From: a virus
IMG/VR virus record: IMGVR_UViG_3300031758_000391
Location: 1 to 29,817 of that record
Length of the DNA: 29,817 nt
Direction: 5' to 3' (one strand)
Shown here: positions 17,001 to 28,925 of the stretch, in pieces
Numbering within the stretch: the stretch's first letter is position 1
Layout: every line of letters starts with the position of its first letter
Program-made: the position numbers and the translations under genes
The notes under the pieces: generated by a model
What the model saw: the letters and a program-made list of their open reading frames with translations, nothing else
What the model was told of the DNA's origin: nothing
Database searches by the model: none

Positions 17001-17804
17001 CTTACCATAGCGTGGATTGCGTAGGTAGTCTAACAATATTTCTGCTGGGTTTGTTGAATAACGTTCTGTGTAGTTTGCACTACCATAGCTGTAGTTTTCA
17101 GTATCTGTATCAATCAAGCTGGCTACTTTTTTACCCAACAAACACACCTGCACTTGTGGAATACCACCACTAAATGGATTGTTGTCTGAATCTTCTTGAG
17201 TCTTAATTTCTTTCCATTCATAGCGAGCAAACATTGTAACAAGACCATTGTGTGCCATAGTTGATTTCCAACTAGGTGAGTCTTTGGTAATTGCTTGTGT
17301 GCCTATAGGTGAGTTTGCAGGATTACTGTAAAATGTTCCTTGGAAGAATTGTAATCTTACTCTACCAGCATACTTGCCTGTGGTAAGTTCAATTGCTTGT
17401 CCTGCATTCAAAGGAGCAATTATGTTGTTGTCTAGCTGTGTGTCATCAATGAATATTTCACGCAAGCCTTCAACAGCACCTTCTGCAAATGTGTAAACAA
17501 CCCAAAGGTATCTGTTGTTGTCTGCACCTGTTTCAGCAAATGTTACTGAGCCTGCAAGTTTTCTATAACCATACACCACAGGTATGTTTACGTTTGATCC
17601 AGTTTGTTGTATTAAGACGCCTTGCTGTCTATCTGCTTCAGCACTATCATTGGGTATGTCTGGAGAACCAAATATTCCCATAAACGGACTTGCTACGAAG
17701 TTTACAACGCTGCTGATTACTTTGCCAACAGCCTTTACAACGCCTGTGATGACATTACCAACTGCCTTGGCAACACTTTTAACTGCTTTAACTACGAAGC
17801 TCAT
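14019..17804 (-). CDS. Tail tip / host attachment protein, lambda J-like (1,261 aa)
   Basis: This is the largest gene and is placed last in the tail module. The N-terminus is an amphipathic Val/Ala/Lys-rich repeat (AVKSVAKAVGNVITGVVKAV), then VNIPVVYGYRKLAGSVTFAE, the conserved start of J-like tip proteins. Residues up to about 530 cover the conserved hub region. A Pro/Gly-rich linker at roughly 540-606 (NPPPTDGTDATGGGG) separates it from repeated Fn3-like beta modules (DSVDFYYKRS, VDIYFKPSANTYW, ARLYFKEAGAATW, VEIYRRER). The last 150 residues are likely the receptor-facing tip. The protein would close the tail and contact the host surface. The start overlaps the GNAT-like gene by 17 bases. 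Confidence 0.88.
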   Translation of the reverse strand: MSFVVKAVKSVAKAVGNVITGVVKAVGKVISSVVNFVASPFMGIFGSPDIPNDSAEADRQQGVLIQQTGSNVNIPVVYGYRKLAGSVTFAETGADNNRYLWVVYTFAEGAVEGLREIFIDDTQLDNNIIAPLNAGQAIELTTGKYAGRVRLQFFQGTFYSNPANSPIGTQAITKDSPSWKSTMAHNGLVTMFARYEWKEIKTQEDSDNNPFSGGIPQVQVCLLGKKVASLIDTDTENYSYGSANYTERYSTNPAEILLDYLRNPRYGKGLSNSEIDWASFRTAAAKCNQTVTYVNGIQGPIMTTNIVLDTGQTLFNNTKTLLSNFRGYLPFVQGKYKLKIEDAGNANDILSGAATIVKTFTKDNMVGSITYTGIDRGSKYNQVVVRYVDPDLKWSVQEVVYPEQEALRLSLQIDDGGRENKAEITFPGLTNYAIAKDMARLILEKSRYQDSITFKGDSSCFELEPGDNVYIEANILKFGTDPNANAIPWRIVSIKLNNDYTFDIGAVRNPDFMYPHARVGEIDVVLPPYIPKGAEIYYPGNRRTPPVGLVPPTSADFPRDGAGDPIIADPVVNPPPTDGTDATGGGGVGAPDGPVNEGGGVNTPPPAPTPIQELTDFITIDNYVVSGNATTGFFLFLTYKQPNNALFDSVDFYYKRSIASETRWDTVNVPYKPGAGQDITATLKPLIAGFTYIIKSRVKYSTGESSKFAGTVNIPIVAGGTGNPVDYQETVTSGWLVNTEAPPLTYNNVFKSIDGRPIAASNPRRANITVVQDINNYPITNKIAGVDIYFKPSANTYWTKQPVDFVAYSEGAPYTFEFPATLGTAGTTDKYDWVVRFRYTDGKQSTKQYRVMNTDVQTDALGATNFNIFTTTQAIAQGQEDVTAFNLLTTEDAPPGGGVADPREFKFTVTQSKNLATGNSSIGFHIDPVVDPDTIWRGARLYFKEAGAATWSSTRVSPMNLSGGFYFIGTVIKYNVQYEYFLVPLVSYNGAVVNAFKGWYGKGAVNFVAGTTFPNYWQQLNFILRDSSVVLQEAQAGGPKTQVQVVEWSRIQRDGTGSSPSTLYFQVKYNAENISNFTRVEIYRRERSITAQDRYNNYYGVGRWEKLTISGSNSTTASGVTTVNLRVPLSHAEFNYYYGAPSADSVNNSTVVSIQPDYTTNKPLCGFRAERFEYMIVTVTSTGNSLQLLPHIPYIALTSKVNGFTYGLPTNVTESSYNAFPVLYLRNFNQSVASIATANLRFGTNSVASLSPVPAGEPAVV

Positions 17805-18264
17805 CGTCTAACTCCTTGGTCATCCACACGCCTTCAGTAAATCCTAGATGTGTGTATATTTTTTTTGTTCGTTCTGGATTAATTCCAATATCGCCTGCTG
17901 TTAGTTTTGTGCAACCACACATCTTTGCCCATTGCTCAACAGCGGTGTATAATTCTTTAAAGTTGTCTAATGACCTATGACTTTCTAGCAAGAAGATCAT
18001 GTCAATGTGTCCAATAAGGATCTTTCTATTCCAAGGCACAGTGGTTACACAGCCTGCAACAAGACCAATTGGACGTTGACCTTCATAGGCATTGAACCAA
18101 ATGTATTCATTGTGTGAATTGTAAAGACGTATTGTTTCTAACACTGAGTCAGTGTCATATTCTTCATTAATTTCTGGCAAGCGTTCTATGGCTTCATCTC
18201 TATAGTAACCAAAGAGATTTACTGTAACATCTATTTCGCTTGGCTGCATACGTCTTACTATCAT
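17788..18264 (-). CDS. GNAT-like N-acetyltransferase fold protein in the tail-tip cluster (158 aa)
   Basis: The strand pair YIWFNAYEGQRPIGLVAGCV (about 54-73), the strand IGHIDMIFLLESHR (84-97), a long helix YTAVEQWAKMCGCTKL (106-121) and TKKIYTHLGFTEG (133-145) follow the GNAT order. The acetyl-CoA pyrophosphate loop (R/Q-x-x-G-x-G/A) is degenerate, with HRSLDNF where it should be, so activity is uncertain. It lies between two tail-tip genes, starting one base after one stop and overlapping the J-like start by 17 bases. In lambda-like and GTA-like tail modules this slot usually holds an NlpC/P60-type peptidase. It may modify a virion protein or be a structural derivative. Confidence 0.72.
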   Translation of the reverse strand: MIVRRMQPSEIDVTVNLFGYYRDEAIERLPEINEEYDTDSVLETIRLYNSHNEYIWFNAYEGQRPIGLVAGCVTTVPWNRKILIGHIDMIFLLESHRSLDNFKELYTAVEQWAKMCGCTKLTAGDIGINPERTKKIYTHLGFTEGVWMTKELDDELRS

Positions 18265-24841: not shown

Positions 24842-25696
24842 TTAAGCAGGATCAACTAAAGATGAGTCAGCAGTGATCTTAACACCGTAACCATCATATA
24901 GTTCACCAACGCCATAGTGTGCTGATGCAACGATGTCGTCACCAATGAATGAAGCACGTCTTTGTGTTTCAATGTTGATGTCGCCAATCATAGCAAGGCC
25001 TAGAGCGTCACGGTGGAATACTGCACCAACGTAGTCACCAGCTGTGCCAGTGTTAGCAATGTTGCTAGACTCAAACACTGGAACACCAAATAGTGTACCA
25101 ACGTAGCCAGTCTGCATTGCTTCGTTCTGGATGATACCAGCATTTGGGTTAGCAAATGTGTTTGTCAATGCTGACTTTAGGTCATAAGCAACGTATGGGT
25201 TAACCACACATGCTAACTGATCTGAAGGAACAGCATTAGCACGTAAACGTGCAACTGCTTGTGCCAATACGGCTGCTGAGAATGCTGTTGAAGCACTACC
25301 AACGCCTACTGAGAAGCCACTGAATAGGGCTAATAGGTCTTGGTCCATTTTCTTAGCGATAGCTTCGCCAAATAAACGTCCCATGTCAGCTACTACGTTA
25401 GAAGCAGAGCTGGCACGTACTAGGTCAGTAATGATAGTACGGATTGCAACTGTGGAAACAGTTAATGTAACACCGTCAGTGCTTACTGCTGTGTTACTTG
25501 CCTCATCACCTTCTGTCAAAGCCGCTGCGGTTTGAGTTGGGTAGATAGGAACAGTAATTGTCTTACCGTTGCTTGCTGGAATTGAATAATTCTTTACTAA
25601 TCCACGCATGATGGATCTTTCGTTTGCGACAAACATTGCTTCAGCAGTGATTGCTGGCAATAGGTCATTTAAGGTTGTAGTTGTTGAACCGGCCAT
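24842..25696 (-). CDS. Major capsid protein, HK97 fold (284 aa)
   Basis: A compact HK97-type coat protein. The N-arm (TTTLNDLLPAITAEAMFVAN) leads into VKNYSIPASNGKTITVPIYP, the strand and loop typical of this family. Further features are a long helix VVADMGRLFGEAIAKKMDQD with LLALFSGF, an ACVVNPYVAYDLKSALTN segment and a C-terminal ETQRRASFIGDDIVASAHYG with GVGELYDG. There is no cleavable N-terminal delta domain and no protease gene nearby, so maturation probably uses the separate scaffold. AAGGAGATATT precedes ATG 25696. Preceded by scaffold and followed by a terminator. Confidence 0.92.
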   Translation of the reverse strand: MAGSTTTTLNDLLPAITAEAMFVANERSIMRGLVKNYSIPASNGKTITVPIYPTQTAAALTEGDEASNTAVSTDGVTLTVSTVAIRTIITDLVRASSASNVVADMGRLFGEAIAKKMDQDLLALFSGFSVGVGSASTAFSAAVLAQAVARLRANAVPSDQLACVVNPYVAYDLKSALTNTFANPNAGIIQNEAMQTGYVGTLFGVPVFESSNIANTGTAGDYVGAVFHRDALGLAMIGDINIETQRRASFIGDDIVASAHYGVGELYDGYGVKITADSSLVDPA

Positions 25697-25714
25697 AATA
25701 ATATCTCCTTGATG

Positions 25715-26392
25715 TTAGGCTAAACCATGTGTCTTGCGGTGTTCCGCATAGACCTTGCGGTGTTCTGGATTTTTCATATCCAATTTGCTAATATCAAATG
25801 CATCTTTGCTGTTATTAATAGAAGTCTTGGTATTTGTAGTGCTTGGTGTTGGTTGAACAAAGTGTGGATTCGCATCTAAAAATTCTTTCACCAACTCCTC
25901 AACTCCTAGTGCTTTGCCTGAATCACTGTAACGGACTGATCCGTCTTGACCAATGACTTCAACTTCGCCATCATCGTTGAGCCTTACATTACTCTTTAAC
26001 AGTGACTTAACTTGTTCTGGATTAACAGAACGATATTTTGCCGCTGTGCTTACCAATGGTGTATCCACCTTGTATTCTTTAATAACTGCATCGCGCTTTT
26101 GAATCTCAGCGTCTTTTTTTGCAGCTAAGTCTTGCATCAACTTTTCAAACTCTCCACGCTTTTTAGCTTCCTCTAATCTCTTAGATTCTGCTTCTGTTTT
26201 GAGTTGACGAAGTTCATCAATATCACCTAAATCAGCAAATTGTCTTTCGTACTTTTTGCTAATGCTGGCTTTTAAGCCTGCCATGTGATTATCAAATTCT
26301 TCTTGTGTGTAAGTCTTTGCTGGTTTTGCCTGACTATCTGTATTGGCTGAAGCGTCAGTTGCTTCTGTTGCCGTGGTTATTGTAGAGTCCAT
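25715..26392 (-). CDS. Capsid scaffolding protein (225 aa)
   Basis: Charged, coiled-coil protein immediately upstream of the capsid gene. Residues 1-25 are a Thr/Ala-rich flexible start, and TYTQEEFDNHMAGLKASISK begins a long Lys/Glu-rich helix (about 27-110; EAESKRLEEAKKRGEFEKLM). A small segment PEQVKSLLKSNVRLNDDGEV follows, then a basic C-terminus (NPEHRKVYAEHRKTHGL) as found in capsid-binding scaffold tails. It would line the inside of the prohead and leave before DNA entry. A CATAAATA element (26433-26426) and AAGGAGG lie upstream. Confidence 0.88.
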   Translation of the reverse strand: MDSTITTATEATDASANTDSQAKPAKTYTQEEFDNHMAGLKASISKKYERQFADLGDIDELRQLKTEAESKRLEEAKKRGEFEKLMQDLAAKKDAEIQKRDAVIKEYKVDTPLVSTAAKYRSVNPEQVKSLLKSNVRLNDDGEVEVIGQDGSVRYSDSGKALGVEELVKEFLDANPHFVQPTPSTTNTKTSINNSKDAFDISKLDMKNPEHRKVYAEHRKTHGLA

Positions 26393-26464
26393 CGTTACTC
26401 TGCCTCCTTAATGAGTGTGTAAGTTTATTTATGTTAAGTGCATTTAACTGTTGTGAAAATGGTG

Positions 26465-26800
26465 TTATTTTCGCGGTTTAGTAGGCTTCTTAACCTTGGG
26501 TGGTTTATGCTTAGGATGAACTAGGTCAGTGTGCTCAGTGTTGATGTATTCAATTAAGTTTTCACACCAAGACTTAAATCTATCTGGTGTCATCTTGTTG
26601 CGCTTGAGATTGTTTTCTAGTTTTCCTAATAATGCATTACAGCCTCTGTGAAGAACTGCCCTAACTAATCCTGATGTGTGACAATGATCTAAAACTGCAT
26701 CATCTACAATTAAGTCATTGCACAGCGCACAACGATATCCTTGCTGTTGTGCAAGTTGTTCTCTAGTGGGTTTAATTTGGGTATATGTTAATCTAGGCAT
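26465..26800 (-). CDS. Recombination endonuclease VII-like HNH nuclease (111 aa)
   Basis: Family signature of T4 gp49-type resolvases: Cys24/Cys27 (YRCALC), then DHCHTSGLVRAVLHRGCNAL with LGKLE. Asp38-His39 match the catalytic D-H pair, and Cys54-Asn55 match the second zinc Cys and catalytic Asn of T4 endo VII. Where T4 has the third zinc Cys there is His51, so the zinc site would be Cys3-His. A basic Pro/Lys-rich tail ends the protein. Such enzymes cut Holliday junctions and branched DNA before packaging. Position between portal and scaffold supports a packaging role. No good Shine-Dalgarno sequence before ATG 26800. Confidence 0.88.
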   Translation of the reverse strand: MPRLTYTQIKPTREQLAQQQGYRCALCNDLIVDDAVLDHCHTSGLVRAVLHRGCNALLGKLENNLKRNKMTPDRFKSWCENLIEYINTEHTDLVHPKHKPPKVKKPTKPRK

Positions 26801-26859
26801 GTATACTAATTAACAAGTATGGCATGAAGTAGATTGTAATAAAGACTTTGACGCTGTAG

Positions 26860-27207
26860 TCAAAGAGTTGCTCGTATGTCATTGAGTGTACGCCTGTCCT
26901 GCTGTATTAGGACGGGCGCAGGAGTTGAATTGTTTTTGTATCTAGGATGACTCCACAACCATTCGTACTCTGCGTCTGAGTCAAGTCGCTTGCATAACTT
27001 CTTAAGTCTGCGAGGTGTAAGATCCACAATGTATACTCTTGCATGGTATGGCTCCAAATCTACGACTTGACTGCGCCATTTTTGTATGCAGATCTTACCC
27101 TTTTGCCAAGCGGCATAACTCCATGGACATTCTTTACGAATGCTGTAGAAGTAATCAGCCCACTTAGCCTCTGCGCTTACCGCCGCCGCCTGTCTTTTTT
27201 CCACCAC
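26860..27207 (-). CDS. Uncharacterised protein after portal (115 aa, start in doubt)
   Basis: The body is convincing: ADYFYSIRKECPWSYAAWQK, ICIQKWRSQVVDLEPYHARV, LTPRRLKKLCKRLDSDAEYE, then WLWSHP, a small soluble Trp/Arg-rich domain with three Cys. The frame opens at GTG 27207, but the best initiation site is ATG 27217 with AGAGAA upstream. That ATG reads a different frame, a Lys/Arg/Gly-rich 17-codon peptide (MKKRGGKKTGGGGKRRG) ending at 27164. Either a sequencing or population indel lies in or near A6/GGC repeats, or a +1 frameshift joins the basic N-terminus to the body. No named family recognised. Confidence 0.7.
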   Translation of the reverse strand: MVEKRQAAAVSAEAKWADYFYSIRKECPWSYAAWQKGKICIQKWRSQVVDLEPYHARVYIVDLTPRRLKKLCKRLDSDAEYEWLWSHPRYKNNSTPAPVLIQQDRRTLNDIRATL

Positions 27208-27227: not shown

Positions 27228-28925
27228 TTAGTTATTATTTCTTGCAGCCGCTGCTGCTGCTTCTACGATGTCTTCAACAGTGATGCCTGGAATCCTATCC
27301 ATAATTTCTTGATTGGTTAGTCCTTGCATTAACAGTTCTTGTATCTGTTCTTGAACTTCTACACTTACTGTTTCAATGTATTCATCATCCATAGGTTCCC
27401 ATTTGGCACACCAGTAGACTGCTCTTACAGGCGCATCAAACTTAGTGCAATACAATTCGCCTGGCTTATAGTATTCACAGTTAGCACAGTTTTGTCCCTC
27501 TGGAACTTCTGCATTAGTTGCTGGTTGATAAGCATTAGGCAAGTTTGCATTTATTTCTTCACCGTCAGGATATAGTCTACCTGGCTGTGGATTAGGATCA
27601 ATGAATGGCAAATATTCTTCTTCTTCACCCATCCACTCAAGGATGTGTTCATCAATCTTGCGTAGCACAACTGCATCAGTTGCTGTGTCTTTGGCAATTT
27701 TTAATTGTTCAATTTCTTTGCTGGTGTCACGTATGTTGAATGAACCTGGGTATTCAACATCGCCATCCCACACCATGCCTTGATACTGTGCATACAGTTT
27801 CCAGATGTGTTCTTCAGCAAGTTGTAGGTTGTCTGCTTTCTCGCTTAGTTTAGCGTTAAGCAATTGAAATTCTGTTTCCATAGCAACACCACTCATTGTT
27901 CTTGATTCAATGGCACGCACAGCACCAATGTTGGCCATCTTATCAATAGCATCAATTGAGTTTTGTATGCTGGCATAGATCTGTGCTAGGTCAGTGCTTA
28001 CACTCAGCAAGTATGGTTTTAATGCTGCATCCATATCTTCAGGCATGTGGATCACTGCACCTGCACCACCCACAGCTTCTACGCTTGGTGTCTTAACCAA
28101 TGCTGGGTGACCATTCAATCTAATGCTTTGTTCTATTTCTGAATATTCATTGTAGATCTTGCGTTGGTGATCAGCAATGTCACTGATGTCGCTTAGACCC
28201 AATCCACGCACAGGTGAACGATGATTGTAGGCTATTACCACAGGCACTATACCCATTTGATTTTCTTCAATGGTTTCTTCAGTTAGCTTTTGACGCTCTG
28301 TGTCCACAACCATAGTTTTGATGTAGTCATTGGTCCACTCTTTAATAACTGTGGTACTGCCGTTTACATCTTCAATGTATTTGATGTAGTCTATTACGTA
28401 TTGTCCATTTGGTGAACGGCTCCAATTCCAATCTGTGACAGTAAGTGGCGTAAGAATTGAAAGATATGGTCTGACACCTTGTGCAAGCTCTTCACCACGT
28501 GATACTGCACCAATGTTTGGTTTAGTAACCATAATAAATGCGTGTCCAAACACTGAACTCCAAATGCTTACTTCTTTCATGAAGTTGTCTAGTGAACGTC
28601 CATCATAGTCAGCGTCTTTGAGGAAACTTTCCAATGCTGGGTCATTGGCAATACTTTCAAATTCACGCTTTGGATTTTCACGGAACAGGAAGCTCACGTA
28701 AACTGAGATCACTGAACGGCAGTGATTGTCTAATGGAGTTGCTTTTAACCTAGCAGCGTATTCGCTTGAAGTTTCAAGTTGATACTTGGTTAGCTGTGCA
28801 GACTCGCGATAGTCCTCACCACCAAGGTAACTTTGTAGTAAGTATTCCCAACGTTTCTGAAATCTAGTGTAGGTATCGTTAGTTGATACCGCTAGATTAT
28901 ATGCATCTTGTATAATTTTATCCAT
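27228..28925 (-). CDS. Portal protein with C-terminal four-cysteine (HiPIP-like) domain (565 aa)
   Basis: Residues about 1-440 are an SPP1/HK97-type portal: RFQKRWEYLLQSYLGGEDYR, TPLDNHCRSVISVYVSFLFR, SVFGHAFIMV, ISDIADHQRKIYNEYSEIEQ and a long crown-stem helix. The portal forms the dodecameric DNA gate and binds TerL. Beyond the usual end there is an added segment with Cys480, 483, 493 and 506 (C-x2-C-x9-C-x12-C-x2-W), close to the high-potential iron-sulfur protein signature. A final helix-turn-helix-like stretch, IQELLMQGLTNQEIMDRIPG, then ITVEDIVEAA, precedes a polar end. The start ATG 28925 follows the TerL stop by five bases. Confidence 0.92.
   Translation of the reverse strand: MDKIIQDAYNLAVSTNDTYTRFQKRWEYLLQSYLGGEDYRESAQLTKYQLETSSEYAARLKATPLDNHCRSVISVYVSFLFRENPKREFESIANDPALESFLKDADYDGRSLDNFMKEVSIWSSVFGHAFIMVTKPNIGAVSRGEELAQGVRPYLSILTPLTVTDWNWSRSPNGQYVIDYIKYIEDVNGSTTVIKEWTNDYIKTMVVDTERQKLTEETIEENQMGIVPVVIAYNHRSPVRGLGLSDISDIADHQRKIYNEYSEIEQSIRLNGHPALVKTPSVEAVGGAGAVIHMPEDMDAALKPYLLSVSTDLAQIYASIQNSIDAIDKMANIGAVRAIESRTMSGVAMETEFQLLNAKLSEKADNLQLAEEHIWKLYAQYQGMVWDGDVEYPGSFNIRDTSKEIEQLKIAKDTATDAVVLRKIDEHILEWMGEEEEYLPFIDPNPQPGRLYPDGEEINANLPNAYQPATNAEVPEGQNCANCEYYKPGELYCTKFDAPVRAVYWCAKWEPMDDEYIETVSVEVQEQIQELLMQGLTNQEIMDRIPGITVEDIVEAAAAAARNNN

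Follow-up and report, generated by a model that had tools for sequence, protein, structure and literature searches.

A HiPIP-fold module near the C terminus of a phage portal protein, a candidate [4Fe-4S] docking cassette of the head

The window, the whole stretch of DNA analyzed here, is a complete IMG/VR record (29,817 bases, linear ends) that is possibly a fragment. Residues 450-512 of its portal protein form a compact domain at the portal tail end that almost certainly has a HiPIP fold. Homology makes it likely that this fold holds a [4Fe-4S] cluster in vivo, and docking is the main role that we slightly favor for the portal copy. As a whole, the description of the module as a HiPIP-fold, [4Fe-4S]-holding docking cassette of the head is the one toward which we lean. 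If the cluster is real, the domain would belong to a family of HiPIP-fold cassettes that recurs among the head-assembly proteins of metagenome phages (portal, prohead protease and protease-capsid fusion). The portal and its parts are located as follows.

27228..28925, minus strand: portal protein of 565 aa, carrier of the module (PF05133 SPP1_portal and PHROG_145)
27690..28886, minus strand: portal core, residues 14-412 (extent of the PHROG_145 match)
27390..27578, minus strand: module with predicted HiPIP fold, residues 450-512 (PF01355, PDB profile search, AF2 and Foldseek)
27528..27530, minus strand: Tyr466, aromatic residue 14 residues N-terminal of Cys480 (at least 90% conserved in alignment A4)
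27486..27488, minus strand: Cys480, putative cluster ligand 1 (invariant in 179/179 copies)
27477..27479, minus strand: Cys483, putative cluster ligand 2 (invariant in 179/179 copies)
27447..27449, minus strand: Cys493, putative cluster ligand 3 (invariant in 179/179 copies)
27411..27413, minus strand: Trp505, aromatic residue directly before the fourth Cys (i-1; Trp in 94 and Tyr in 85 of 179 copies)
27408..27410, minus strand: Cys506, putative cluster ligand 4 (invariant in 179/179 copies)
27399..27401, minus strand: Trp509, aromatic residue at i+3 from the fourth Cys (Trp in 179/179 copies)
27255..27347, minus strand: C-terminal tail past the module, residues 527-557, weakly DUF433-like (PF04255, 17.9 bits, below the cut-off of 23.6)

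The portal is recognized by SPP1_portal (PF05133) with an E-value of 1.1e-7 over residues 66-395 and by the PHROG_145 portal family with an E-value of 1.8e-48 over residues 14-412. The four-Cys motif that a sequence-only reading had placed in the portal C terminus, beyond the portal domain, is confirmed in both respects: the core ends at residue 412 (PHROG_145) or 395 (Pfam), and residues 480-509, CANCEYYKPGELYCTKFDAPVRAVYWCAKW, follow the pattern C-x2-C-x9-C-x12-C-x2-W. Its span of 27408-27488 covers exactly Cys480 to Cys506, and Trp509 is just beyond. In outline the module reads RLYPDG...LPNAYQPA...CANC...C...YWCAKWEPM, and a unit that begins at YPDG is seen repeatedly, on portals, in Dps fusions and as standalone proteins. 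No second four-Cys motif of this kind turns up when the window is translated in six frames, and no second HiPIP match was found in the window. The uniqueness in six frames, the PF01355 scores and the strong purifying selection given below argue together that the motif is not a chance occurrence. A tail like residues 527-557 is present without the module in locus L020.

Among the neighbors of the portal, an Endonuclease VII-like gene (PF02945, E 8.7e-14; 26465-26800, minus strand) lies between the portal and the putative scaffold, and no S78 prohead protease was recognized in the ORFs scanned between the portal and the major capsid protein (24842-27207). A GNAT acetyltransferase-like ORF (PF00583, E 3.1e-7; 17788-18264, minus strand) is located in the tail gene cluster, between the tape measure and the J-like fiber.

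Comparisons of the module copies, from loci found by homology or by peptide patterns, showed that the four Cys and the Trp three residues after the last Cys are kept in every copy (179/179), a count that is partly biased because some of the searches used Cys-containing peptide patterns. In the set from the portal-homology search, the four Cys are kept in 14/14 module-bearing loci. The check on Cys conservation in related portals, proposed together with the motif, thus came out in its favor. The spacing of x12 between the third and the fourth Cys is nearly constant and the loop between the second and the third Cys ranges from 7 to 18, in a set that comes partly from patterns that fix the spacing. 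HiPIPs have a conserved Trp directly before the fourth Cys and a conserved aromatic residue at i+2 or i+3 (PMC7462912), a feature that the window module shares through Trp505 and Trp509. An invariant Tyr precedes the first Cys in the alignment of cellular HiPIPs (A5) as well; its equivalence to Tyr466 was judged by eye, in a region that hhalign left unaligned. Between the window and close portals, the module has a dN of 0.04-0.11 with a dS above 1 or saturated, and it is under strong purifying selection.

The Pfam family HIPIP (PF01355, cut-off 22 bits) matches the isolated segment with 22.7 bits, the record in the genome search with 22.4 bits (E 4.6e-6) and the whole portal with 18.7 bits, the last below the cut-off. 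The HiPIP signature is C-x(6,9)-[LIVM]-x3-G-[YW]-C-x2-[FYW]. As the sequence-only reading had claimed, the window module fits it except for Tyr504 in the place of the Gly, and so misses the exact form; this is a small departure, and the exact signature with Gly occurs only in standalone relatives, for example L318. Relatives were gathered from IMG/VR and genomes, and the alignments used for profile searches contain phage copies only. With portals only (alignment A1), HiPIPs in the PDB appear only at E-values of at least 0.2 and an antibody chain ranks top. With the proteases added (A2), the best 6 of 177,635 PDB sequences are HiPIPs (E 3e-4 to 1e-3), and with the 56 rows of A4 the top 14 of 177,635 are all HiPIPs (E 9e-6 to 0.58). 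Alignment of the phage copies with Tat-type cellular HiPIPs by hhalign, the cellular side being nine sequences from genes with twin-arginine-like leaders, gave a probability of 96.3 and a P-value of 1.5e-9. A scan of genome contigs with the phage alignment also pulled out a cellular HiPIP (L208, 64 bits with PF01355). In a shuffle test, which is weaker than the profile evidence, 34/56 modules scored above at least 99 of 100 shuffles that preserved Cys and Trp (HMM of cellular HiPIPs, single scoring), and the window module reached 11.6 bits against a maximum of 7.7 among its own shuffles. A tree of the modules with the cellular HiPIPs has too few columns to resolve the origin.

The predicted structure agrees with the profile searches. 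The AF2 model on the narrower alignment A3 has a pLDDT of 55.9 and is too uncertain to use. On A4, with phage rows only and no templates, the model has a pLDDT of 88.5 and a pTM of 0.68. The segment is thus modeled confidently and not as the disordered tail that had been named as one outcome against the motif. A Foldseek search of this model against 350,542 PDB chains gave 18 matches with E-values up to 10. The first 14 are without exception HiPIPs (TMq 0.50-0.65; best E 8.6e-3 with prob 0.99), the single E-values being modest, and ranks 15-18 are glycyl-radical enzyme entries (E 1.9-4.7). In the viral library, the best match is A0A2K9VGN9, an unnamed protein of 484 aa, as long as the prohead protease P0002 of phiPsal1 (a match by length only); several small phage proteins among the matches are already labeled HiPIP, and a portal in BFVD, A0A6J5N8S4, matches weakly (E 0.5). 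The profile search, the predicted fold and the Cys conservation all point to a HiPIP as the probable identity of the segment, the lead reading from the outset.

The same searches bear on the nature of the metal. No zinc family was found among the Pfam hits on the portal with E-values up to 10, and zinc-site proteins are absent both from the significant hits of the PDB profile search and from the Foldseek PDB matches. A zinc knuckle or ribbon, the main alternative put forward with the motif, is unsupported by the Pfam, PDB profile and fold searches. Four-Cys sites are able to bind either metal, and the four Cys could therefore hold zinc as a structural site within a HiPIP-derived fold. This is improbable, however, with the PDB profile and Foldseek matches being HiPIPs followed by glycyl-radical-enzyme entries, with the HiPIP-conserved aromatic residues kept and with relatives of the module tied to iron proteins.

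The module has several other carriers. It is found in the N-terminal part of S78 prohead proteases, for example P0002 of Pontimonas phage phiPsal1 and many IMG/VR contigs, and in a protease-like ORF of L161-L167, L182, L205 and L207, which matches the head maturation protease family PHROG_15531 (run on L166 and L205). A single ORF, L206:2245-4272 on a contig binned as Bacteroidetes, combines the HiPIP module, an S78 protease and a phage capsid domain. Further carriers are large unassigned proteins (L212, L227, L228 and L230), a ferritin-like (Dps) protein with the module as a C-terminal fusion (ferritin PF00210, E 6e-20) and small standalone proteins. One standalone group is found downstream of nrdB: nrdB is present in 9/10 of its contigs with the module gene downstream in all nine, overlapping nrdB in most and ~0.16 kb off in L252 and ~1 kb off in L240. 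The standalone HiPIP-like gene directly follows nrdB in L214:4210-5432, L221, L225, L229, L238, L243 and L273. A-type Fe-S carriers are encoded upstream of nrdB in L225 (BLAST match) and L240 (confirmed by PF01521). Members of a second standalone group, of ~62 aa, lie near terminase-like and DUF5824 genes. A DUF5824 domain also occurs alongside the HiPIP module in L168:3293-5335 and L318:1354-1614, fused in a protease or encoded by a neighbor gene. In the cultured Pelagibacter phages HTVC026P and HTVC111P, a standalone relative is located a few genes upstream of the terminase, and their portals match the window portal only up to residues 439 and 412.

For some of these carriers, a function in redox chemistry is a serious rival to docking, since ferritin and nrdB are each an iron-redox system. 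A module with a [4Fe-4S] cluster might pass electrons to or from Dps/ferritin or the diiron NrdB, or handle iron, and on the portal it might sense or buffer oxidative conditions around the packaged DNA. The fusion to ferritin/Dps, the position after nrdB with A-type carriers nearby and an aromatic shielding that resembles that of electron-transfer HiPIPs are consistent with such a role. A general parallel is the order nrdA-nrdB-yfaE in E. coli, in which yfaE is a [2Fe-2S] ferredoxin. However, neither nrdA/nrdB nor A-type carriers were found in the window, and the ORFs between the portal and the capsid protein have no Pfam match to a redox partner. The module is also carried by proteases and the protease-capsid fusion, which have no obvious redox chemistry, and the same C-terminal slot holds a cassette without the four Cys in relatives. 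Redox or iron handling is thus a rather unlikely function of the module.

The exchange of cassettes between portal and Dps is seen in the phage group of the window. Searching with the Dps part gave 19 contigs; wherever the stretch extends over these genes, they are ordered TerL - portal - Dps - scaffold - MCP, the window order plus Dps; their portals are ~50% identical to the window portal. These contigs, with the Dps/ferritin gene located between those of the portal and the scaffold, are L355-L373 (e.g., L359:1418-3550 and L365:1622-3938). The Dps C terminus carries the HiPIP module in five contigs (L355, L356, L357, L359 and L364), a six-Cys cassette in four (L358, L360, L361 and L362) and an H-x-M-x-NP-x-TG...EH...GY cassette in three (L368, L369 and L371), and the remaining Dps have little or no extension. 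Among the portal tails read, none beside an extended Dps carries a cassette. Conversely, the six-Cys cassette is on the portal next to a bare Dps in L365-L367 and L373, and the H-M-NP-TG cassette is on the portals of L001-L003, L016, L019, L022 and others, loci in which Dps was undetected. What connects the H-M-NP-TG cassettes of portal and Dps are weak HMM scores, 9.6-11.6 bits when three sequences were searched. The six-Cys cassette has the core C-x2-C ... C-x12-C-x2-W (L358, L360-L362, L365-L367 and L373) and may be a variant HiPIP to which two further Cys have been added, the two types being connected by weak HMM scores only. C-terminal cassettes are thus found either on Dps or on the portal, no examined locus having them on both, and two HiPIP modules in one locus were found in 0/303 loci, most of which are genome parts. 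In the window type, the HiPIP module is on the portal and the ORFs between the portal and the capsid protein are not Dps by Pfam. The portals of L001-L003 are 80% identical to the window portal over residues 1-453 and have no HiPIP module.

With a Dps-HiPIP gene directly after the portal in sister phages and no module in the closest portal relatives, the portal copy could be a passenger, fused to the portal by a deletion when the Dps-HiPIP gene was lost and having little function now. The low dN/dS argues against this, as does the fact that every portal copy found has retained the four Cys and the Trp, and such an origin as a mere leftover is very improbable. The slot can hold a HiPIP, a six-Cys or a non-four-Cys domain on either of two neighboring gene products, so that docking or recruitment is a simpler explanation than a fixed redox reaction.

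In the preferred docking reading, Cys480, Cys483, Cys493 and Cys506 would ligate a [4Fe-4S] cluster, with Trp505 and Trp509 as its shield. Loading of the cluster by the host Fe-S machinery would take place in the cytoplasm and precede assembly. Since the module is C-terminal to the portal core, it would probably be located at or beyond the portal crown, facing the capsid interior. Portals are dodecamers, and the module could be present in up to 12 copies. Rather than transferring electrons, it would serve as a compact docking cassette, stabilized by the cluster, for recruiting or orienting components of the head; prohead proteases also work within the procapsid. A precedent is given by glycyl-radical enzymes, whose HiPIP-like subunits serve assembly and control conformation. 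That the interchangeable cassettes put Fe-S clusters on the portal or on the Dps-like ferritin of the adjacent gene, as an iron/redox system that guards the packaged DNA or signals the redox state at the genome gate, is an unlikely variant.

The presence of the module on other head proteins or on an iron-storage-type protein of related phages suggests the existence of iron-sulfur clusters in some phage heads. Database labels of HiPIP-like on small phage proteins and Fe-S clusters in tail tips are already known. In the openly licensed PMC literature, searches found no portal or prohead protease described as having a HiPIP domain, and no account of a portal/Dps cassette exchange; the earlier remark was that no Fe-S cluster is known to be established in a portal. 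If the cluster is real, this would be, as far as we found, the first phage portal with an Fe-S domain. Phage heads would be linked to iron proteins (Dps/ferritin and class I RNR), making the role of iron in virions directly testable, and the exchangeable cassette would be a probe for portal and procapsid assembly.

Comparison with known HiPIPs (PF01355; T. tepidum 1EYT, E. vacuolata 1HPI and PioC) shows a shared C-x2-C-xn-C-xn-C core with a CxNCxxY segment and aromatic residues adjoining the last Cys and at +3, and HiPIPs are the top matches in sequence and predicted fold. The ligands of PioC, the smallest HiPIP, are Cys22, 25, 34 and 47 (PMC7462912), giving spacings of x2, x8 and x12 compared with x2, x9 and x12 in the window module. 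However, HiPIPs are exported free electron carriers, whereas the window module is a domain inside a portal without an export signal: the protein begins MDKIIQDAYNLAVSTND, with no twin-arginine and no Tat signal. The module also differs in its shorter loop between the second and the third Cys, the Tyr in the place of Gly and a Pfam score at the cut-off. Small subunits with a HiPIP-like fold are also known from glycyl-radical enzymes, where they hold [4Fe-4S] clusters and have roles in assembly, in solubility and in controlling conformation (PMC12358834). BSS beta, MASS beta/gamma and HPAD gamma resemble the module in their HiPIP-like fold (Foldseek ranks 15-18), but they are separate subunits of metabolic enzymes and the structural similarity is weak. 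Phage proteins auto-named HiPIP-like in UniProt/BFVD, such as A0A879R316 of Synechococcus phage S-SRM01 and A0A8S5V678 of Siphoviridae sp. ctmqu18, have a predicted fold similar to that of the module and are small or uncharacterized, without assigned function. As the sequence-only reading had noted for lambda gpL, the tail tips of lambda, R4C and RcGTA have a structural protein of the virion in which four Cys hold an iron-sulfur cluster (PMC10721106, PMC10276861). Domains of the gpL type are located in the tail tip and use Cys173, 182, 205 and 212 in gpL, whereas the window module is on the portal with another Cys layout, and these two differences set it apart from a gpL-type tail-tip Fe-S domain.
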